DNA of 51,011 nt from Flavobacteriales bacterium (GTDB lineage Bacteria; Bacteroidota; Bacteroidia; Flavobacteriales_F; PHOS-HE28). The stretch covers positions 1 through 51,011 of the forward strand of contig JADLBK010000050.1 in assembly GCA_020847755.1 (NCBI GenBank), written 5' to 3'. A program made the position numbers and the translations under genes. Below, in pieces: positions 2,232-16,879 of the stretch. The notes under the pieces are model-generated. The model was not told where the DNA came from and did not search any database. It saw nothing but the letters and a program-made list of their open reading frames with translations. Each line of letters opens with the position of its first letter. The first letter of the stretch is position 1.

Positions 2232-3401
2232 ATGGACAGCTCGATGGACGTGGCGGTGATCGGGGCCGGGGCGATGGGCAGCGGCATCGCGCAGGTGGCT
2301 GCTCAGGCGGGTCATCCGGTGCTGATGATGGATGCGCGGCCAGGGGCGGCGCAACGCGCCGTGGACGCCGTACGGACCACGCTCGGCAAGCTGGCCGAGA
2401 AAGGACGGCTCACTTCCGCCGAGGCCGCTGAGGCCGGTGCGCGCCTGCGGGCCGTGGGCTCCGTGGACGATCTCACCGGTTCGCGCCTGGTCATCGAGGC
2501 CATCGTCGAGGATCTCCCGGTCAAGCGCGGGTTGTTCACCGAACTCGAGTCCGTGGTCGGCACCGACTGCGTAATGGCCACGAACACCAGCAGCCTCAGC
2601 GTGACGGCCATCGCTGGGGCGTGCGCCCATCCCGAACGGATCATCGGCCTGCACTTCTTCAACCCCGCTCCACTGATGCCCCTGGTGGAGGTGGTGCCCG
2701 GCCTGGCCACCGCTCCGGGGCTGGCCGAGCGATGCAGCATGTGGATGAAGCAGTGGAGCAAGGTCCCGGTGCTGTGCAAGGACACCCCAGGCTTCATCGT
2801 CAACAGGGTGGCTCGACCGTTCTACGGCGAGGCCCTGCGCATCTATGAGGAGGGCCTGGCCGACATGGCCACCATCGACCACGCCATGCGCACGGTCGGT
2901 GGCTTCCGCATGGGGCCTTTCGAGCTGATGGACCTCATCGGCAACGACGTCAACTTCGCCGTCACCCGCAGCGTGTTCGAGGCCTTCTTCTTTGATCCCC
3001 GCTACCGGCCGAGCCTCACCCAGCAGCGCCAGGTGGAGAGCGGTCGGCTGGGGAGGAAGTCCGGTCGCGGGTACTACGACCACAGTAACGGATCGCTGCC
3101 TCCCACACCCAAGAACGACCCGGAACTGCTGGACATGATCTACCGCAGGATCCTCGTGATGCTCATCAACGAGGCTGCGGATGCCCTCTACCTGGGCATC
3201 GCCGACCGGGATGCCTTGGAACTGGCCATGACCAAGGGGGTCAATTACCCGAAGGGCCTGCTGAGGTGGGCGGATGAATTCGGTCTTGAACGATGCCTGT
3301 CCGCATTGCAGGACCTGCAGGCCGAATATGGAGAGGACCGCTATCGACCTTCACCCCTGCTGCGCAGGATGGTCCGCGAGGGAAGGCTGTTCCACGGGTG
3401 A
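2232..3401 (+). CDS. 3-hydroxyacyl-CoA / 3-hydroxybutyryl-CoA dehydrogenase
   Basis: MDSSMDVAVIGAGAMGSGIAQVAAQAGH Rossmann motif; IGLHFFNPAPLMPLVEVV and KDTPGFIVNR motifs. The track start at 2130 lies inside palindrome copy 4, so the start is set at ATG 2232. Confidence 0.85.
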   Translation: MDSSMDVAVIGAGAMGSGIAQVAAQAGHPVLMMDARPGAAQRAVDAVRTTLGKLAEKGRLTSAEAAEAGARLRAVGSVDDLTGSRLVIEAIVEDLPVKRGLFTELESVVGTDCVMATNTSSLSVTAIAGACAHPERIIGLHFFNPAPLMPLVEVVPGLATAPGLAERCSMWMKQWSKVPVLCKDTPGFIVNRVARPFYGEALRIYEEGLADMATIDHAMRTVGGFRMGPFELMDLIGNDVNFAVTRSVFEAFFFDPRYRPSLTQQRQVESGRLGRKSGRGYYDHSNGSLPPTPKNDPELLDMIYRRILVMLINEAADALYLGIADRDALELAMTKGVNYPKGLLRWADEFGLERCLSALQDLQAEYGEDRYRPSPLLRRMVREGRLFHG

Positions 3402-3451
3402 TCCGACACCGGTCCGTCGGTAATTTATTCTCCATGGCAACTTTCGGTGGC

Positions 3452-3459
3452 TACATTTG
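3452..3459 (+). promoter_or_regulatory. TACATTTG, matches the Bacteroidota -7 element TAnnTTTG
   Basis: Exact TAnnTTTG upstream of the YceI-family gene. Confidence 0.5.
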
Positions 3460-3486
3460 CCGCCCCAAACACCAACGACAGATCCC

Positions 3487-4116
3487 ATGAAGCTCCATTT
3501 GTTCAGCGCCACCGGCTTGGTGGCCCTCACGCTCGCCTCCTGTGGCGGCGGCGGAAGCACCGAAGGCCAAGGCACGATCGACAGCACGGCCGCGATGGCG
3601 GCCAAGGAAGTGACCTACGCCTTGGACGTTGCGGCCAGCAAGCTCACCTGGAAAGGGGTGATGATCGGCGTGAAGTACCACGAAGGGACCATGGCCTTCA
3701 CCGAGGGCAGCTTCACGGCAAAGGGTGGCCAGCTCGTCACCGGTGGCTTTGTGGTGGACATGAAGAGCATGGTGCCTCTCGATACCAACTACAACAAGGA
3801 CTACACCAAGGAGAAGCTCACCGGTCACCTGGCCAGCCCTGACTTCTTCGCGGTCGACAGCTTTCCGACCGCCAGCTTCAAGGTGACCTCGGTGAGCGGC
3901 AATTCCGCCACCGGTGAGTTGAACGTGCGTGGTCGCATCGGCACCGAAACGGTGACCGACATCGTGATCAGCGAGGAGAACGGCATGGCCAACGCCAGCG
4001 GCAAGCTGGTGTTCAACCGCCAGAAGTACGGCGTGTCCTGGGCCAACCCGATGAAGGACATGGTGCTCAGCGACGACATCGAGATCGTGGTGTCGCTGGT
4101 GGGCAAGGCGCAGTAA
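3487..4116 (+). CDS. YceI-family lipoprotein
   Basis: Lipobox-like LVALTLASC signal; YALDVAASKLTWKGVMIGVKYHEGTMAFTEGSF; internal start MKLHLF at 3487. Confidence 0.8.
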   Translation: MKLHLFSATGLVALTLASCGGGGSTEGQGTIDSTAAMAAKEVTYALDVAASKLTWKGVMIGVKYHEGTMAFTEGSFTAKGGQLVTGGFVVDMKSMVPLDTNYNKDYTKEKLTGHLASPDFFAVDSFPTASFKVTSVSGNSATGELNVRGRIGTETVTDIVISEENGMANASGKLVFNRQKYGVSWANPMKDMVLSDDIEIVVSLVGKAQ

Positions 4117-7133: not shown

Positions 7134-8648
7134 ATGAGGACCAAGGCCACCATGCTCCGCTTCGGGCTGCTCTTCGCCGCCCTGCTGGTGCTGCTCAACC
7201 TCGTCGGATCGCGCTTCCACGTCCGCCTCGACCTCACCGGCGACCAGCGCTATACGCTCAGCAAGGCCACGCGCGACATCCTGAAGGACATGCCCGAGGC
7301 CGCCACCATCACCGGATACTTCACCGAGGAGCTGCCGCCCGACCTGGCCGTGGCCCGCGATGAGTTCCGCGATCTGCTGGTGGAGTACGCCGAACGCTCC
7401 GGCGGCAACGTGGTGTACGAGATGATCGACCCGGCCGCGGCCGACTCCCTCGAGCAGCAGGCCTTGGAGAGCGGCATCCGCCCCCTCCTGGTGAACACCC
7501 GGGAGAAGGACAAGGCCGAGCAGATCAAGGCCTTCATGGGCGCCGTCGTCCGCATGGGCGATCAGCAGGCCGTGATCCCCGTCGTACAACCAGGCTCACC
7601 CATGGAATGGGAGCTCAGCTCCCGCATCAAGGAGGTGAGCGTGCAGGAGAAGCCCGTGGTCGGCATCATGCAGGGCCATGGCGAACCCTCCGTGAACGCC
7701 ATGGCCCAGGCCATGCAGGGTCTCAGTGTCCTCTACAGTGTGGAGCCCATGGCCATCTATGACACGATGCCCGTGCATGGCCGCTTCCGCACCATCGCCA
7801 TCATCGACCCGGCGGATACCATCAGCCCCATGGCGCTCCAACGGCTGGAGGAGTTCATGGCCCGCGGTGGTGGGGTGGTCATCGCCTTCAGCAATGCCGC
7901 CGGCGACCTGCAACGTACACCGCTCGTGGAGCAGCGGACCACCGGCCTCGATGCATGGCTCGCCCGCCACGGCCTGCATGCCGAGCAGGATCTGGTGACC
8001 GACGCCCAATGCGGCCAGGTGCAGGTGATGCAGCAACGCGGCTTCTTCAACCTCCAGACGGCCATGGCCTTCCCCTACTTCCCCTTGGTGACCCGCTTCG
8101 GCGAGCACCCGGTGGCCTCGGGCCTCGAAGCCGTCGTCCTGCAGTTCGCCCGATCGTTCAGCGTCGTCGGCGACAGCACCTACCGCTACACCCCCTTGCT
8201 CACCACCAGCGACCGCACCGGCTCGGTGGCCCTGCCGCACGAGATCGACCTTCAGCGCCAATGGTCCGATGCGGACTTCACCCAGCCCCCCCGCCACCTC
8301 GCCTTCGCCATCGAAGGGCCCTTCGGCAATGGACCCGGCGCCCGGCTCGTGGTGATCGGCAGCGGCAACTTCGCGGTCGGCGCGGAAGGCGGCCAGCTGA
8401 ACCCGGACAACGTGAACCTGCTGGTGAACGCCGTGGACTGGGTCAGTGACCAGACCGGACTGATCGATCTGCGCGGCAAAGGCGTGAACTACCGACCCAT
8501 CGAGGAACTGAGCGAGGCCGAGCGCAGCACGCTCAAGTGGTCCAACCTGCTGCTGCCCATCCTGCTCGTGATCGCCGGCGGCGTGCTGCGCATGCAGTGG
8601 CGCCGGCGCCAACGAAAGGCCCGAACGGCCCCCGGCCATGTGGAGTAA
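7134..8648 (+). CDS. gldG: Gliding motility-associated ABC transporter substrate-binding protein GldG
   Basis: LNLVGSRFHVRLDLTGDQRYTLSKATRDIL; position after gldF. Confidence 0.85.
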   Translation: MRTKATMLRFGLLFAALLVLLNLVGSRFHVRLDLTGDQRYTLSKATRDILKDMPEAATITGYFTEELPPDLAVARDEFRDLLVEYAERSGGNVVYEMIDPAAADSLEQQALESGIRPLLVNTREKDKAEQIKAFMGAVVRMGDQQAVIPVVQPGSPMEWELSSRIKEVSVQEKPVVGIMQGHGEPSVNAMAQAMQGLSVLYSVEPMAIYDTMPVHGRFRTIAIIDPADTISPMALQRLEEFMARGGGVVIAFSNAAGDLQRTPLVEQRTTGLDAWLARHGLHAEQDLVTDAQCGQVQVMQQRGFFNLQTAMAFPYFPLVTRFGEHPVASGLEAVVLQFARSFSVVGDSTYRYTPLLTTSDRTGSVALPHEIDLQRQWSDADFTQPPRHLAFAIEGPFGNGPGARLVVIGSGNFAVGAEGGQLNPDNVNLLVNAVDWVSDQTGLIDLRGKGVNYRPIEELSEAERSTLKWSNLLLPILLVIAGGVLRMQWRRRQRKARTAPGHVE

Positions 8649-9573
8649 CCTCAGCACGCGGGCCCTGCTCATCGCGGTCGGCGTGCTCGCCCTGCTCTTC
8701 CTCATCTCCAACCTCTGGAGCCCGCGCACCAAGGATCGCAGCTTCCGCGACGTGGTGATGACCCTGGACACCGCCGCGGTCACCGGTTTCTCCCTCTTCC
8801 CCAGCGCGATGCGCCCCACCGAACTCCGCTTCGACCGCAGCCCCGATGGGTGGACGGTGAGCGTGGACGGCCGCATCCATCGCGCCGACGATGAACGTGT
8901 CCGCGAGTTCCTCGGAGGCCACGCCCACATGCGCAGCAAGCGGCTCACGGGCTTCATGGACCTGGTGAAGGATCGCTATGACCTCACCGACAGCCTTCGC
9001 GAGACCGCGATCTTCCGGCTGGTGGACGGTCCGGAGCGCACCGTGCATTACGGGCGCAACACCTTCGCCCCGGGACAGGTGGGCATGTGGTCCACCGTGA
9101 ACCTGCCGGGCGAGGAAGAGGTCTTCTCGGTGGAGGGCACCATGAGCATGCTGGCGGAACAACCCCTGGCCGAGTGGCGGCCCAAGTGGCTGGTGCGCGG
9201 TGATCCCGCACGCATCCAACGCCTTCGGTTCAGCTATTCGATGGACACGGCCTTCGTGGTGGAGCGCGTGGGCAACACCTGGATGGTGGACGCCGACACC
9301 GCGGACCAGAGCAAGGTGGACGGCTACCTCGCCCCCCTCGTCCGCGCTCGCACCCAGGCCTTCGCCGACACGGTGAACATCGCCGGTCTGAACCCCGACT
9401 ACGGCCTGGAAGTGAGCTTCGACGATGGCCGAGCGCCCATCACGGTCAGCATCTACACCGGTTGGTCGGGCTTGGTGGCCACCACCTCGCTCGACCCCGG
9501 ATCGAAAATGCGCTTCGACCCCTCGCGTGAGCTGACGCGCATGTTCAAGACACGCGGCTTCTTCCTGCCCTGA
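8638..9573 (+). CDS. DUF4340 domain-containing protein
   Basis: N-terminal TM segment; overlaps the gldG 3' end; lipoprotein-processing-like DUF4340 pattern. Confidence 0.65.
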   Translation: MWSNLSTRALLIAVGVLALLFLISNLWSPRTKDRSFRDVVMTLDTAAVTGFSLFPSAMRPTELRFDRSPDGWTVSVDGRIHRADDERVREFLGGHAHMRSKRLTGFMDLVKDRYDLTDSLRETAIFRLVDGPERTVHYGRNTFAPGQVGMWSTVNLPGEEEVFSVEGTMSMLAEQPLAEWRPKWLVRGDPARIQRLRFSYSMDTAFVVERVGNTWMVDADTADQSKVDGYLAPLVRARTQAFADTVNIAGLNPDYGLEVSFDDGRAPITVSIYTGWSGLVATTSLDPGSKMRFDPSRELTRMFKTRGFFLP

Positions 9574-9671: not shown

Positions 9672-10430
9672 ATGCCCAGGCTCCACATCCTCCCCCAGCC
9701 CGATGACAACACCTGCGGGCCCACGGCCTTGCAGGCGGTGTACGCGCACCTGGGCCTCGACCTGCCGCTGGACCAGGTGATCCGGGAGGTGCACGCCCTG
9801 GAGGACGGTGGCACCCTGGCGGTCTTCCTCGGCCTGCACGCACTGAAACAGGGCTTCCATGCGCGCATCCACAGCTACAACCTCCGCGTGTTCGACCCCT
9901 CGTGGGAGGGCCTGCCGGGCGATATGCTTCGCAAGAAGCTCGTGGCCCAGACCCGCTTCAAGGACGGCAAGAAGCTCACCGCGGCCTGCCTGGCCTACGC
10001 CCGCTTCCTGAAGATGGGCGGCGAGGTCCGGTTCGATGACCCCACGCCCGAGCTCCTGCGCGACTACCTGGACCGGGACCTGCCGATCCTCACCGGGCTC
10101 AGCGCCACCTACCTCTACCGCAGCAAGCGCGAACACACCGGCGCCAGCGGGCAGAGCGTCTTCGATGACCTCCGCGGGAAGCCCATGGGGCACTTCGTGG
10201 TGCTCACCTCCATGGAGGGCAAGACCGTGAATGTGGCGGACCCTTACATGGACAACCCATACAGCCGCGAGCATCATTACCCGGTGCATGTGGGCCGTCT
10301 GATCAACTCCATCATGCTCGGCATCGTCACCTACGATGCGAACATGCTCATCCTGTCCCGCTCGCCCCTTCCCCCCCCGCTGGTGAAGGAACGCGCCCCG
10401 AAGCGTCCGAACCCCTCCGACAGCCCATGA
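9672..10430 (+). CDS. Peptidase C39-like (papain-fold) protein of a RimK/GCS2 cluster
   Basis: NTCGPTALQAVY (Cys), GHFVVLTS (His), VADPYMDNPY (Asp) catalytic-triad-like motifs; ATGA overlap with next gene. Confidence 0.75.
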   Translation: MPRLHILPQPDDNTCGPTALQAVYAHLGLDLPLDQVIREVHALEDGGTLAVFLGLHALKQGFHARIHSYNLRVFDPSWEGLPGDMLRKKLVAQTRFKDGKKLTAACLAYARFLKMGGEVRFDDPTPELLRDYLDRDLPILTGLSATYLYRSKREHTGASGQSVFDDLRGKPMGHFVVLTSMEGKTVNVADPYMDNPYSREHHYPVHVGRLINSIMLGIVTYDANMLILSRSPLPPPLVKERAPKRPNPSDSP

Positions 10431-11935
10431 GGAAGATCATCGTGGTGCGCGATCCGCGTGAGTTCCACCTCGGCCTTTCCGGCGTGGAGGTGGTGTCCAG
10501 CAAGGATTACCTCACCGACCCCACCTACGCCGCGCTGCGCAACGTGCGCATCTTCAACCTGGCCCGCAGTTACAGCTATCAGAGCCGCGGCTACTACGTG
10601 AGCCTGCTGGCCGAGGCCCGCGGCCACAAGGTGATCCCGGACGCGAAGAGCATCCTCGACCTGCGTTCGCCACGCCTGGTGAAGGTCATGGGACGTGACC
10701 TGCACGGCCACATCCAGCAGCAGCTGGCGGACAGGAAGAAGGACCAGTTCGACCTCAGCATCTACTTCGGCCGCAATGTCAACCGCAAGTACGACCGCCT
10801 CGCGCACGAACTCTACAAGGTGTTCCGGTCGCCGCTCCTGCGCGCCCGTTTCCAGCGCACCGGCGGTGAATGGGAACTGCGCACCATCCGTCCCATCCCG
10901 TACAACGACATCCCCGAGGACCATCTGCCCTTCCTGCGGCGCTTCGCCAGCGAGTACTTCTCCAAGAAGCGCTACGACCGCGCCCGCGAGGACCACAGCA
11001 GCTACGACCTGGCCATCCTGGTGAACCCCGAGGACCAGGCCTCACCCAGCAACAAGCGTGCGGTGGTCAAGTTCCGCCAGGCCGCCGAGCGGCTCGGCTT
11101 CAAGGTGGACATCCTCGGCCCGGACGACATCGATCGTGTGGGTGAGTACGACGCCCTGTTCATCCGTGAGAACACCCACGTGGACCACCACACCTACCGC
11201 TTCGCACGGAAGGCTCAGAAAGAGGGCCTCGCCGTGATGGACGCGCCGGACGCCATCCTCAAGTGCAACAACAAGGTCTTTCTCGCCGAGGTGATGGAGG
11301 CGCACGCTGTGCCCACGCCGCGCACCATGATCGTGCACGCTGAGAATCGCCACGAGGTGATCGCCCGTTTCGGCCTGCCCGTGGTCCTGAAGCTACCGGA
11401 CAGCACCTTCAGCCGGGGGGTCACCAAGGCGCACAGCCCCGAGGAGCTGGAAAGCAAGCTCGACGAGCTCCTGGGCGAGAGCGACCTGGTGATCGCCCAG
11501 GAGTTCATGCCCAGCGACTTCGACTGGCGGGTGGGCGTGCTCGACGGCCGGCCGCTTTACGCCTGCAAGTATTACATGGCCCGCGGCCATTGGCAGATCT
11601 ACAACTGGAGCAGCGGCACCAAGAAGGACCAGACGGGCGACTTCGCCACACTGCCGGTCGACCAGGCGCCCAAGGCCATCGTGGACGCCGCTGTGAAGGC
11701 CGTGCTCGCCGTTGTGGGCGACCAGGGCCTCTTCGGGGTGGACGTGAAGGAGCACGACGGGCGCCCCTATGTGATCGAGGTGAACGAGTGCCCCAACATC
11801 GATCATGGCGTGGAGGACGTCGTTCTCGGCGACGCCCTGTATGAGGCCATCATCTGTTCCCTGAAACACCGCATCGAACGCAGGATCGGCATCCGACCGA
11901 CCGCCGCACCGGCCGCGCCGGCACAACGCACATGA
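10427..11935 (+). CDS. RimK-family ATP-grasp ligase with N-terminal RLAN-like domain
   Basis: 502 aa; C-terminal ATP-grasp: VVLKLPDSTFSRGVTKA...VIAQEFMPSDFDWRVGVLDGRPLYACKYYMA...VDVKEHDGRPYVIEVNECPNIDHGVED. Confidence 0.85.
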   Translation: MRKIIVVRDPREFHLGLSGVEVVSSKDYLTDPTYAALRNVRIFNLARSYSYQSRGYYVSLLAEARGHKVIPDAKSILDLRSPRLVKVMGRDLHGHIQQQLADRKKDQFDLSIYFGRNVNRKYDRLAHELYKVFRSPLLRARFQRTGGEWELRTIRPIPYNDIPEDHLPFLRRFASEYFSKKRYDRAREDHSSYDLAILVNPEDQASPSNKRAVVKFRQAAERLGFKVDILGPDDIDRVGEYDALFIRENTHVDHHTYRFARKAQKEGLAVMDAPDAILKCNNKVFLAEVMEAHAVPTPRTMIVHAENRHEVIARFGLPVVLKLPDSTFSRGVTKAHSPEELESKLDELLGESDLVIAQEFMPSDFDWRVGVLDGRPLYACKYYMARGHWQIYNWSSGTKKDQTGDFATLPVDQAPKAIVDAAVKAVLAVVGDQGLFGVDVKEHDGRPYVIEVNECPNIDHGVEDVVLGDALYEAIICSLKHRIERRIGIRPTAAPAAPAQRT

Positions 11936-13173
11936 CCCCTCCCAAGCGGAACGCCTTCAAGCTCTTCGAGGTCACCGGCATCGAACTGGAGTACATGGTG
12001 GTGCAGCGCGGTACGCTGCGTGTGATGCCCATCGTGGACCAGCTCTTCAAGGATGTCACCGGCCGCATCACCAGCGATGTGGAACGCGGTGATGTGGAAT
12101 GGAGCAACGAGCTCGTCAGCCACGTCGTGGAACTGAAGACCGCGCGCCCCACGCGGCGCATACCCGCCTTCCGGCGGAAGTTCGCCACGGAGGTGCGCGC
12201 CATCAACGCGGCACTCGCCGCACACGACGCCATGCTGCTGCCCACGGCCGCCCATCCGCTCATGGACCCCTTCACCGAAACGGTGATCTGGCCGCACGAA
12301 CACAATGAGGTGTACGCCCTGTACAACCGCATCTTCGATTGCCGGGGCCACGGCTGGAGCAACCTCCAGAGCACCCACATCAACCTCCCCTTCGCCAATG
12401 ATGAGGAGTTCGGCAAGCTGCACGCCGCCGTGCGCATGGTGCTGCCCATCATCCCCGCGCTCTCCGCCAGCTCACCCCTCCTCGATGGCAAGCCCACCGG
12501 GTTCCTCGACTCGCGCATGGAAGCCTACCTGCACCATCAGGAACGCCTTCCCGCCCTTATGGGCTCCCTGATCCCCGAAGCGGTGTTCACCCAGGAGGAC
12601 TACTACCGCGAAGTGTTCGACCCCATCGGCCGCGCCCTCGCCCCGTTCGATACAGAACACGTGATGGACCACCACTTCGCCAACTCGCGGGGGGCCATCG
12701 CGCGGTTCGACCGTGGTGCCATCGAACTGCGCGTCATCGACATCCAGGAATGCCCGGGGGCCGATCTGGCCATCGCCGAACTGATCATGGTCCTCTGCCG
12801 CGCCATGACCAAAGGCCGCTGGACCAGCACCTACCTGCAACGCGCCTGGGGCGAGACCGACCTGCTGCCCATCTTCCTGCAGACCATCAAGGACGCCGGC
12901 AAGGCCGTCATCGCGAACAAGGACTATCTGCTGATGTTCGGCGTGATGAAGGAGCAGCGGATGACCGCGCAGCGCCTGTGGGAGCACATCGTGCAGGAGC
13001 TGCGGGGCGAACTGAGCGAGGAAGCGCGTGCCGTGATCGATCATCTGCTTGCCAAGGGCTGCCTGGCCCAGCGCATCCTGGCCCGCACCGGTCGAAAGCC
13101 CTCGGCGGACAGGATCCGGCAGGTCTACATCGAACTCGCGGCCTGCCTGCAGGACGACCGGCTCTTCGTATGA
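11932..13173 (+). CDS. Glutamate-cysteine ligase family 2 (GCS2)-like carboxylate-amine ligase
   Basis: TGIELEYMVV, STHINLPF, GAIELRVIDIQECPGADLAIAELI; ATGA overlaps at both ends. Confidence 0.8.
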   Translation: MTPPKRNAFKLFEVTGIELEYMVVQRGTLRVMPIVDQLFKDVTGRITSDVERGDVEWSNELVSHVVELKTARPTRRIPAFRRKFATEVRAINAALAAHDAMLLPTAAHPLMDPFTETVIWPHEHNEVYALYNRIFDCRGHGWSNLQSTHINLPFANDEEFGKLHAAVRMVLPIIPALSASSPLLDGKPTGFLDSRMEAYLHHQERLPALMGSLIPEAVFTQEDYYREVFDPIGRALAPFDTEHVMDHHFANSRGAIARFDRGAIELRVIDIQECPGADLAIAELIMVLCRAMTKGRWTSTYLQRAWGETDLLPIFLQTIKDAGKAVIANKDYLLMFGVMKEQRMTAQRLWEHIVQELRGELSEEARAVIDHLLAKGCLAQRILARTGRKPSADRIRQVYIELAACLQDDRLFV

Positions 13174-13883
13174 CGCGCGTGCTGCTCACCTGCGAGCATG
13201 GCGGCCATGAGGTGCCCACCGAGCTGCGCGCCCTCTTCGCCGGGGCCGGCGAGGTCCTTCGCTCCCACTGCGGTTGGGACCCCGGCGCCCTGGACCTGTT
13301 CACGGCCCTGCGCCCTCTGGCCCACCTCGCGCTGGAAGGCACCACCTCCCGCCTGGTGGTGGAGCTGAACCGCTCGCTCGACAGCCCGGCCCTGTTCTCC
13401 GCGTTCACGCGCGACCTGCCGCACGCCCAGCGCAGCCACCTCATCGACGAGCACTACACCCCCTTCCGCACGGCCGCCGCCGATGCCGTGGCCACCTGGC
13501 GTGCCGACCGACCGAGTGTCCTTCACCTCAGCGTGCACACCTTCACCCCAGTGCTGGACGGTGTGCAGCGTCCGATGGACATCGGTCTGTTGTACGACCC
13601 TGCACGCAGTTGGGAAAGGGCGCTGGTCGAGGCATGGGAGCAACTGTTGAACGCCGCGGCGCCGGACCTCGTGATCCGCCACAACGAGCCTTACAGGGGC
13701 ACCGATGACGGCCATACCACGGCCCTGCGGGCCGCCCACGCCGTGGGGTATGCCGGGATCGAGCTGGAGGTGAACCAGCGCTTCGCTTCGGCCGATGGCC
13801 TTCGCATGGACGAGCGTGTCACCGGGGCGGTCGTGAGCAGCTTCCAGGCCTTGCTCGCCCACCCCGTGGCGACCACCCCCTGA
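13170..13883 (+). CDS. N-formylglutamate amidohydrolase family protein
   Basis: VLLTCEHGGHEVP, VELNRSLDSPALFS, HLSVHTFTP, GIELEVNQRF motifs; start 13170 overlaps the upstream stop. Confidence 0.85.
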   Translation: MTRVLLTCEHGGHEVPTELRALFAGAGEVLRSHCGWDPGALDLFTALRPLAHLALEGTTSRLVVELNRSLDSPALFSAFTRDLPHAQRSHLIDEHYTPFRTAAADAVATWRADRPSVLHLSVHTFTPVLDGVQRPMDIGLLYDPARSWERALVEAWEQLLNAAAPDLVIRHNEPYRGTDDGHTTALRAAHAVGYAGIELEVNQRFASADGLRMDERVTGAVVSSFQALLAHPVATTP

Positions 13884-13922
13884 ACGCGAGCGCCCCGGGG
13901 ATCCCCCGGGGCGCTCGTGTTC
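13882..13922. terminator. Bidirectional strong hairpin terminator
   Basis: 14-bp perfect core CGAGCGCCCCGGGG-ATC-CCCCGGGGCGCTCG, extended by further pairs, between convergent genes. Confidence 0.85.
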
Positions 13923-13933
13923 GGCACGGATGA

Positions 13934-16879
13934 TCAACGCACCACCTGGAAGCGCTCCTCACCCCGCGCCCGATCGGTGATCACCTGCAGCACGTAGCTG
14001 CCGGGTGCAAGGCCTGCGATGTTCAGGACGATGCGATCGCGCAGCGCAGCGCCGCTCACCTGCTGTCGCACGACCACACGGCCCGAGGCGTCGAGCACGA
14101 CCAGCTCCGCCGAGCGCGCATCGCCCATGGCCCCGCGCACCTGCAATTGGTCCTGCGCCGGTTTCGGGAAGACGAGCAGCTCGACCGTGGAGGCTTCCTC
14201 GATCCCGATGCCGTCGGCCAGGTCCCACAGCTGGATGTCATCCACCGCGGCCTCCACCAGGCTGCCGCCGTCCAGGTTCTGCCCGGGCCGGATGCTGTCC
14301 GAGGCGTTGTACTTGATGTACACCGTGGAATTCGGGCTCACGAAGTCGCCCACCCGGAAAGCCACCCGGCGCCAGCTCCGGTCGCTCGTCCTCGTGTTCT
14401 CGACGGGGACCCAGTTGCTGCCATCGTTGCTCAACCACACCTGCCACCAGTCCGCGCCGGGGTTGGCGCCGCTCGGGGGATCGTTCACGTACCAGCGCCA
14501 GTAGGACATGGCCGGCTCCTGCATGTTCGACATGTCCAGCGCGGCGCTCCGCAGCGTGGTGGTGCCACCGTCCACATCGTTCTCCCCCAGCGGGGCGAGC
14601 TCGCTCGATGCGTTGCCCGTCACATAACAGATCTCTCCACCCGGAGTGTGCTGGTATCCGGGCTGCACCACCGTGCTCAGGTCGCCCGGGGTGGCATAGC
14701 TGCCCACGGGCATGTTGAACTCCCACTCGCCGGTGGTGGCATTGTCCGTGGGGAGTCCGATGTCCCAATTCCCGAGCTGGGTGTTGTTGTCCGCATCGTC
14801 CGTGGCCACCAGCCCGAAGCCCACCATGATGTAATAGGGCACGTTCGGGTCGGGTTCGGCCGCACCGATCGGCACCACCGCGCTCAGCTGCTGGAAGCTG
14901 TCCTCCACCCCCATGTAGTACGCGATCACCGTGCCCGCAGGCTGCGCAGGAATGGTGACGTGGTAGTCGTTGCTGCCGAAGTCCACCATCGGCAGGGTGT
15001 TCCATGTGGCGCCGTCATTCACCCGGTAGAACAGCTTCACCTCCGAGAGGAAGGGCAGGAAATCGAAGTCCAGGACGAGCTGTGCATCCAGCTCGATCCC
15101 CTGCGCTTCGGGCGCCGTCTCCAGGTTGCTGTGCACCAGGGTGGCGTTGCTCAGCAGGGTGATCCCGTGCAGGGCGAAGGCCTCCACGATGGCCGCGGCG
15201 TTCGGCGTGCCGTTGGTGATGTCGCCGTCCGTGTCATCCGCCTGCAGCACGTCCAGCAGCACATCGCGGAACGCCTGCCCTTCATTGCCGTTCACCGTGT
15301 TCGCCTGCAGACCCGGAAAGGCCTCGACGAACAAGGTGAGCATCGCGTTCATGTCATTGCCCAACAGCAGGTAGGTGTCCCACCAGGCCCCGGCGATGAT
15401 CTCCCCGTCCGCATGCACCTGGCCCACCAGGTCCACCGGGTACACCTTGCGGTTCTCGTCATAACGCCGGATGAAGTTGTCAGGGTCGCTCAGCGAACTG
15501 CCTTCGGCCAGGATCGGGTCCTCGGTGATCGAAAGGGCCCACACATCCGCATAGCCTTCGTTCATGGCCCCGTTGGTGAACTGGCTCAGCAACGAACCAT
15601 AGAACTTGTCGTTGATGCCGTGCCCATACTCGTGGTACACCACCTCGGCGATCTGCGCGTAGCTCTGGCAGTCCCCGCCCTCCTGATAGAAGTTGATGGA
15701 ACCGCCATCGTAGAAGGCGTTGCAGGTCCCGGCCACATCGACGTTCGTGGCGAAGGGGACGTCAAGGGAAGTGAAGTTCGGCAGCCACGTCTTCATGTGG
15801 TCGTGCACCACGTTCACATGGTAATAGGCACTGCGCTCACGGAGGTTGGCGTTCGCGTCGAAGCTCACCGCGTTCGGACCCTCCTGCAACGTGGTCTGGA
15901 AGCTCGGGGTGCTGCCTCCCGTCTTCACATTGCACCAACGGCCGTCCAGGAAGAAGGTGGCGTTCACCGGACCGCCCACACCGGTGTTCAGATAGCCCTG
16001 GTCATCCAGGTATTGGCTCAGTCCGTTCACGACCACGCGCAGGTCGGGCAGCACCTCGGTGGTGGCCGGCACGTACGGGTTCACCGTGTGGGCCGCGGCG
16101 GTGGCGGCGATCTCCGCCCCGGCGGAGGCCGGGGGCGCATGATGCACCACCAGGTCCTGCCGGTAGAGCAGCTCGCCCGAATGTGCATCCACCCAGCACG
16201 ACCAGCGGCCGGGCACCCCCTGCTCCATGGTGTTGATCATGACCTCATGCACCAACCGGTGCTCCACGGTCCGATGGCCCGGGACCGGCAGGATGCGCAG
16301 CCCGTTGACCGCAGCGCCCACGATACCGGTCAACCCGCTCGAGGCGTTCACCACCGCCGCGGCTTCACTGATGCCCGGCTGCGTCTCCACCTGGATCCCC
16401 GGATACAGATCGGTGCCGAACGCGATCACCCGGCCTTGGGCGTCCAGCTTCACCATCGCCTGGCCGAACACGACGGGCAGGCCGGCGTGGGTCTGGGCAA
16501 AGTGCACATAGGTGTGCTTGGCGGTGGGATACACGGACCTCACGCTGACCTCTGCGAGGGGCAGGTTGAAGCCCGCGAGCTGGTGCTGGAGGAAGTCCCA
16601 TGCCTTCGACACGGGATCCGCGCCCATCGCCGGGATGGGCCTGCCGAAGGCCCGATGCGGAAGCCCGCTGGCCTCGTTGAACTCCGTCCACCACGTGCCA
16701 TGTTCGGCCACGAAGGCCCGCCACTGGGGCCGTGCACGCAGCTCGGCCTGCCAGGGGATGTCGGGCGTACGCTGCGGATCGCGGATGAAGGTGATGCTCC
16801 GTTCATCGCGGCCGCCTTCCACGGCCATGGCATTGAGGGTGCCGGCGATCAGACCGGCGACGAGGAGGACTTGACGCAT
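13934..16879 (-). CDS. M36 (fungalysin)-family secreted metallopeptidase with T9SS C-terminal domain
   Basis: 981 aa; HEYGHGINDKFYG zinc motif, NEGYADVWALS; C-terminal VFPKPAQDQLQVRG...LAPGSYVLQVITDRARGEERFQVVR. Confidence 0.85.
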   Translation of the reverse strand: MRQVLLVAGLIAGTLNAMAVEGGRDERSITFIRDPQRTPDIPWQAELRARPQWRAFVAEHGTWWTEFNEASGLPHRAFGRPIPAMGADPVSKAWDFLQHQLAGFNLPLAEVSVRSVYPTAKHTYVHFAQTHAGLPVVFGQAMVKLDAQGRVIAFGTDLYPGIQVETQPGISEAAAVVNASSGLTGIVGAAVNGLRILPVPGHRTVEHRLVHEVMINTMEQGVPGRWSCWVDAHSGELLYRQDLVVHHAPPASAGAEIAATAAAHTVNPYVPATTEVLPDLRVVVNGLSQYLDDQGYLNTGVGGPVNATFFLDGRWCNVKTGGSTPSFQTTLQEGPNAVSFDANANLRERSAYYHVNVVHDHMKTWLPNFTSLDVPFATNVDVAGTCNAFYDGGSINFYQEGGDCQSYAQIAEVVYHEYGHGINDKFYGSLLSQFTNGAMNEGYADVWALSITEDPILAEGSSLSDPDNFIRRYDENRKVYPVDLVGQVHADGEIIAGAWWDTYLLLGNDMNAMLTLFVEAFPGLQANTVNGNEGQAFRDVLLDVLQADDTDGDITNGTPNAAAIVEAFALHGITLLSNATLVHSNLETAPEAQGIELDAQLVLDFDFLPFLSEVKLFYRVNDGATWNTLPMVDFGSNDYHVTIPAQPAGTVIAYYMGVEDSFQQLSAVVPIGAAEPDPNVPYYIMVGFGLVATDDADNNTQLGNWDIGLPTDNATTGEWEFNMPVGSYATPGDLSTVVQPGYQHTPGGEICYVTGNASSELAPLGENDVDGGTTTLRSAALDMSNMQEPAMSYWRWYVNDPPSGANPGADWWQVWLSNDGSNWVPVENTRTSDRSWRRVAFRVGDFVSPNSTVYIKYNASDSIRPGQNLDGGSLVEAAVDDIQLWDLADGIGIEEASTVELLVFPKPAQDQLQVRGAMGDARSAELVVLDASGRVVVRQQVSGAALRDRIVLNIAGLAPGSYVLQVITDRARGEERFQVVR

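Follow-up and report, generated by a model that had tools for sequence, protein, structure and literature searches.

A C39-RLAN-GCS2-FGase operon of Bacteroidota that may serve the synthesis and turnover of a small glutamate-containing peptide

The operon described here lies in a contig of 51,011 nucleotides from a Flavobacteriales bacterium (JADLBK010000050.1, assembly GCA_020847755.1), analysed over its whole length and hereafter called the window. It encodes a C39-like papain-fold protein, an RLAN/RimK-type ATP-grasp ligase, a GCS2-family ligase and an enzyme of the N-formylglutamate amidohydrolase family (FGase). The conserved gene order and the joint inheritance and loss of these genes suggest that the operon probably makes and recycles a small intracellular glutamate-containing peptide. 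Its closest described relatives are RLAN/RimK amidoligase neighbourhoods, in which RLAN proteins reportedly accompany GNAT-papain fusions, with GCS2 as an occasional partner (Iyer et al. 2009, Mol BioSyst). The Pfam entry PF14401 reportedly describes such neighbourhoods too, with the GNAT-papain fusions and a mention of GCS2. The operon shares with them an RLAN-ATP-grasp protein and a papain-like peptidase, but this peptidase is neither fused to nor beside a GNAT, and GCS2 and FGase are found in its stead. The C39-like protein matches no GNAT family in Pfam and no conserved GNAT partner is encoded close by. Similar RLAN neighbourhoods were reportedly predicted in 2009, and the operon would be a variant of this biochemically uncharacterised type. 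To our knowledge, a defined product has not been assigned to any RLAN-type ligase; a literature search returned neither such a product nor any paper on the C39/RLAN/GCS2/FGase combination.

Other systems share part of this organisation. The operon for the osmolyte N-acetylglutaminylglutamine amide, a non-ribosomal short peptide, links a peptidase to the ATP-grasp enzyme that makes this peptide, as here, but also encodes a GNAT and an amidotransferase, neither of which is found here. Glutathione biosynthesis resembles the operon in that a GCS-fold ligase, GshA, is succeeded by an ATP-grasp ligase, GshB. However, the ligases of the operon fall outside the GshA (PF04262) and GshB (TIGR01380) families, and the operon adds an RLAN domain and two linked hydrolases. 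RimK puts glutamate onto ribosomal protein S6 and RimB takes it off, and both RimK/RimB and RloABC associate a RimK-type ATP-grasp enzyme with a peptidase in an operon, this peptidase being a retropepsin and not a C39 protein, with neither GCS2, FGase nor RLAN (PMC12239564).

The four genes of the window are:

9672..10430, + strand: gene for a C39-like papain-fold cysteine peptidase/transferase, 252 aa (Pfam PF03412)
10427..11935, + strand: gene for an RLAN plus RimK-type ATP-grasp carboxylate-amine ligase, 502 aa (Pfam)
11932..13173, + strand: gene for a GCS2-family carboxylate-amine ligase, 413 aa (Pfam PF04107)
13170..13883, + strand: gene for an FGase-family amidohydrolase, 237 aa (Pfam PF05013)

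An earlier note on this DNA had described four genes joined by three ATGA start/stop overlaps; both the reading frames and the overlaps (10427-10430, 11932-11935 and 13170-13173) are read directly in the sequence and the Pfam families agree. Such overlaps by themselves are frequent in bacteria and say little; the weight lies on conserved gene order. Across loci, 4-bp xTGA overlaps are found at 33/60 C39-RLAN, 34/89 RLAN-GCS2 and 41/76 GCS2-FGase junctions, and most of the other junctions are still less than 30 bp apart.

Relatives of the RLAN protein were searched for in one genome per species (84,980 species), which gave 317 stretches, of which 80 were kept; none was found in phages. The complete order C39-RLAN-GCS2-FGase is present in the genus of the window, in Cesiribacteraceae, Pontibacter and Marinilabiliaceae, all Bacteroidota, and in Fibrobacter. 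RLAN is followed by GCS2 in every locus with enough flanking sequence, except where RLAN is linked to a GNAT or stands alone, and the order RLAN-GCS2-FGase is also found in Legionella adelaidensis. The families thus recur together in other genomes (Bacteroidota, Fibrobacter and Legionella), as the earlier proposal demanded. The cassette is modular: RLAN and GCS2 are its constant part, FGase is optional and C39 is missing from Flavobacteriaceae. In Azospirillum and Tistrella (L126 and L127), an RLAN-ATP-grasp protein again has a C39-like partner, a GNAT-C39 (DUF3335) fusion, while GNAT replaces GCS2 and FGase. The persistence of C39 beside RLAN where the two other genes are missing ties C39 to the RLAN step. 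The profiles of the DUF3335 GNAT-C39 proteins and of the C39 proteins of the operon align weakly (hhalign probability 80), a moderate link at the level of sequence.

Several individual loci have peculiarities of their own. In rumen Fibrobacter (L093, L095, L099 and L103), the distance from GCS2 to the downstream FGase exceeds 1.3 kb, and in the first of these loci the gap holds the gene of a lipoprotein-like protein (436 aa) that bears a tyrosine-phosphatase-like motif (HCTYGMDRTG). In L. adelaidensis (L124), a DUF4332 gene (3310-3714) follows RLAN-GCS2-FGase; the 9-kb 'plasmid' concerned, on which fur and dapF are found, is possibly a misassembled piece of chromosome. A plasmid of P. aeruginosa (L125) carries a stand-alone RLAN ligase (7908-9497) near pagP, a gene of the short-chain dehydrogenase/reductase type and a glutamate/aspartate ABC transporter accompanied by genes for gamma-glutamyltransferase and asparaginase, so that a link of this ligase with glutamate metabolism is possible.

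Co-occurrence was analysed in 118 genomes of the phylum and in 44 genomes of the genus of the window. In the phylum, strong matches to C39 and to GCS2 are found in an identical set of nine genomes (9/118), belonging to six families. The probability of such identical sets is about 1e-13 if genomes are independent (1 over 118 choose 9), a figure that kinship makes too strong. RLAN is present in these nine genomes and in three more, where it belongs to GNAT-RLAN fusions of 648-654 aa (L136-L138) that share the RLAN-ATP-grasp part, with GNAT in place of GCS2 and FGase and no other operon gene nearby. Within the genus, 30 genomes out of 44 have C39 and the same 30 have RLAN; GCS2 is present in 41 and FGase in 18, all of the latter among the 30 that possess RLAN.

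In most of the RLAN-negative genomes of the genus that were read, GCS2 is the sole operon gene left at the shared syntenic position, L142 being different in composition and context. The rows with GCS2 only fall within the RLAN-positive diversity of the GCS2 tree, with three changes by parsimony, at least two of which are forced by supported branches. This indicates that C39 and RLAN were lost jointly about three times. The least diverged orphan GCS2 (L140 and L141) keep nearly all conserved residues. In seven others (L143-L147, L149 and L150), E18, E20, E60, E67 and H149 are gone in most cases and the open reading frame (ORF) is still intact. The ratio of non-synonymous to synonymous substitution rates (dN/dS) climbs in the N-terminal half from 0.03-0.11 (intact pairs) to 0.32-0.70 (old orphans), and in the C-terminal half from 0.04-0.15 to 0.22-0.40. 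The decay of these residues and the rise in dN/dS indicate that GCS2 catalysis is under selection only alongside RLAN and C39, and they are the best functional evidence in this analysis. The genus is a natural experiment, with close relatives that have the full set, that lack FGase or that retain a decaying GCS2 alone, and their comparison could point to what this putative orphan peptide pathway of bacteria makes. As a separate observation, the orphan gene persists with a conserved C-terminal half; it may encode a pseudoenzyme with a new role or be decaying slowly.

The families support the earlier description of two ligases and two hydrolases for which no known product was found, and alignments with 52-81 relatives (64 for FGase) reveal that the catalytic residues are kept in all four, as that description implied. 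The features within the RLAN protein are:

10502..10936, + strand: RLAN domain, residues 26-170 (Pfam domain limits)
11264..11785, + strand: catalytic ATP-grasp domain, residues 280-453 (Pfam domain limits and conserved residues)

The RLAN domain scores 158.2 bits against a curated cut-off of 25 (PF14401, 1.5e-46) and is followed by an ATP-grasp domain (ATP-grasp_3, 2.7e-9; RimK, 6.6e-6; both over cut-off), as expected of members of this family. The ATP-grasp residues K283, K322, R368 and D439 are invariant, and E451 and N453 are invariant or nearly so. The protein does not qualify as a RimK S6 glutamate ligase (67.2 vs 143.4 bits for TIGR00768, 21.6 vs 331 for NF007764). Modelled alone by AlphaFold2 (residues 1-190, window 10427-10996), the RLAN domain reaches a mean predicted confidence (pLDDT) of 90.5. 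Its matches by Foldseek are ArgX/LysX, with the lowest E-value (1.9e-5), RimK (5e-4), synapsin and PPIP5K. The TM-scores, normalised on the query, are mostly 0.5-0.6 and the superpositions are loose (root mean square deviation of 8-10). This model suggests that the RLAN domain is a degenerate and shortened ATP-grasp module placed ahead of the active one. An hmmsearch of the PDB with the RLAN profile did not retrieve ATP-grasp proteins. An internal duplication was also looked for by sequence and rejected at that level, since hhalign against the catalytic half gave only a shared boundary or noise; it is the comparison of folds that speaks for it.

The GCS2 protein belongs to PF04107 (8.8e-24, 84.8 bits vs a cut-off of 21). 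Its residues E18, E20, E60, E67, H149, E265 and R267, which include the conserved Glu/His metal-ATP residues, are invariant among relatives, and the corresponding motifs coincide in an alignment with E. coli YbdK. However, its best score against the NCBIfam models of YbdK and of the cyanobacterial, plant and other glutamate-cysteine ligase (GCL) subfamilies is 55.5 bits vs a cut-off of 176.4.

The C39-like protein matches Peptidase_C39 (PF03412, 1.4e-6) and has no obvious signal peptide. Q9, C15 (9714-9716), H174 (10191-10193) and D190 are invariant among its relatives (52 and 22 sequences), so that the Cys-His-Asp triad of bacteriocin-processing C39 peptidases is present in a papain fold, but this stand-alone protein of 252 aa has neither an ABC-transporter fusion nor a conserved precursor peptide or transporter encoded nearby. 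Its AlphaFold2 model (pLDDT 89.9) matches the peptidase domains of ComA and PCAT1 and the isopeptidase PeiR and, more weakly, the phytochelatin synthase Alr0975 (0.009), the azinomycin protein AziU3 and CtaG, a peptidyl transferase of closthioamide biosynthesis (PMC6772006). The likeness of the model to CtaG makes it possible that the C39 protein transfers instead of hydrolysing.

The last protein belongs to the broad FGase family (PF05013, 2.6e-23; structure 2odf, 1.5e-20), with E9, H10, R61, N67, R68, H119, H123, E198 and E200 invariant among 64 relatives, but is not a HutG N-formylglutamate deformylase (TIGR02017, 16.2 vs 278.75 bits). Since the NCBIfam cut-offs for GCL, YbdK, RimK, GshB and HutG are all missed, no known reaction can be transferred to the operon.

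We consider it about as probable as its contrary (roughly 0.5) that the operon encodes a small cytoplasmic pathway for a non-ribosomal peptide or amide, in which GCS2 and then RLAN build, C39 and FGase hydrolyse, and a gamma-glutamyl-type product is retained. GCS2 would activate a carboxylate with ATP, most likely the gamma-carboxylate of glutamate, and couple it to an amine. By a second ATP-dependent amide bond, the RLAN enzyme would lengthen this product, as GshB does after GshA. The C39-like enzyme, with its Cys-His-Asp papain fold, would act on the RLAN-made bond by hydrolysis or transfer, and the GCS2-type amide would be cut by the FGase-type amidohydrolase, one cognate hydrolase per ligase allowing turnover of the pool. 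We infer the order of the steps, glutamate as substrate, the assignment of C39 to RLAN and of FGase to GCS2, and the retained metabolite. The joint loss of C39 and RLAN in the genus and the GNAT-C39/RLAN operons devoid of GCS2 and FGase give some support to the C39-RLAN pairing. A fuller version, with two dissimilar ligases each having its cognate hydrolase in an undescribed intracellular gamma-glutamyl-type peptide pathway, and an RLAN enzyme that would be a tandem ATP-grasp protein with one dead half (the RLAN domain), is put forward tentatively, with the odds against it. The operon narrows the question of the RLAN product to two ligases selected together.

Several points weigh against such a pathway. 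All 26 loci of Flavobacteriaceae have RLAN-GCS2-FGase without an adjoining C39 gene (26/26), and in nine genomes where RLAN lacks a neighbouring C39 gene, chiefly Flavobacteriaceae, no full-length C39 relative was found elsewhere but only one short weak match. FGase is missing from 12 of the 30 RLAN-positive members of the genus. The model of two ligases with two cognate hydrolases thus fails in places. The earlier proposal of a dedicated pathway gains from co-occurrence, joint loss and conserved catalytic residues, whereas its fixed four-gene cassette does not hold. Moreover, no solved GCL or YbdK is close to GCS2 (best 0.0016), which leaves glutamate as a substrate suggested by the family. 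No known product or substrate was found for the operon, and the substrate may be a protein encoded elsewhere.

This last point leads to protein tagging, which appears unlikely: the RimK-like RLAN enzyme and GCS2, whose fold is related to Pup ligase, would attach amino acids or a short tag to some protein whose gene lies elsewhere, for C39 and FGase to strip, as RimK and RimB do on S6. The glutamylation of S6 provides a precedent (PMC12239564), processing peptidases and the isopeptidase PeiR are among the matches of the C39 model, and no precursor or exporter was found nearby. However, neither a target protein nor a tag gene is linked to the operon, and the genome of the window encodes a separate RimK-like ATP-grasp protein (L002), so that S6 modification is probably handled there. 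Furthermore, FGase-family enzymes are known to act on small N-acyl amino acids.

A glutathione-like thiol pathway, in which GCS2 would form gamma-Glu-Cys and RLAN would add a third residue in place of GshA and GshB, seems quite improbable. The order of the chemistry is the same, the C39 model weakly resembles phytochelatin synthase, and the genus has neither classical GshA (0/44 genomes) nor GshB over cut-off (0/20). The lack of the canonical glutathione enzymes also bears on the earlier condition that the cassette should not make a known compound such as glutathione. On the other hand, BshC is present in 19/20 genomes of the genus and bacillithiol is thus likely to be the main thiol. In addition, the operon is patchy (9/118 genomes of the phylum), unlike a housekeeping thiol pathway, and the similarity of GCS2 to GCLs is weak.

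There is little to recommend a cluster for a secreted antibiotic or signal, or a graspetide-type cluster for a ribosomally synthesised and post-translationally modified peptide (RiPP). C39-like proteins do process RiPPs or serve as acyltransferases in closthioamide-type pathways (PMC6772006, to which the CtaG match relates), and the distribution of the operon is patchy; but no conserved precursor ORF, carrier protein, tailoring enzyme or exporter/transporter was seen around it, and the C39 protein lacks an ABC-transporter part. A RiPP precursor near the operon was thus rejected as a candidate. Taken with the lack of GshA and GshB, the presence of BshC and the separate RimK-like protein, the lack of a conserved nearby precursor, carrier or transporter makes a small product kept inside the cell more likely than S6 modification, glutathione, a RiPP or an antibiotic for export. 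As for unrelated housekeeping genes adjacent by accident, strong synteny in the genus could alone keep neighbours together, but the association is repeated in six Bacteroidota families, Fibrobacter and Legionella, and the joint loss of C39 and RLAN with decay of orphan GCS2 already contradicts this reading, which is hardly credible.

The mechanical ORF of FGase opens upstream, at 12750; the Pfam match begins at residue 3 counted from the ATG at 13170. The operon is followed by one further feature:

13880..13924, + strand: G+C-rich hairpin of 21 bp overlapping the FGase stop codon, without T-run (fold energy)

The strong hairpin reported earlier after the last gene was recovered, with a stem of 21 bp (13880-13900/13904-13924), -48.3 kcal/mol and z = -6.9 relative to shuffled sequences. 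It sits between convergent genes and was not called by intrinsic-terminator scoring; given this position and the missing T-run, its role as a terminator is conjectural. Within 6 kb of the operon, no other broadly conserved partner gene was found across loci, the synteny being lineage-specific. In the window, an ABC-transporter/GldG-like/DUF4340 gene set lies upstream. The convergent gene (13934-16879, - strand) codes for a large secreted protein of protease-like type, which carries both a thermolysin propeptide motif (FTP) and a sorting tail of the type IX secretion system. This gene keeps its position in much of the genus, even in genomes devoid of C39, RLAN and FGase.

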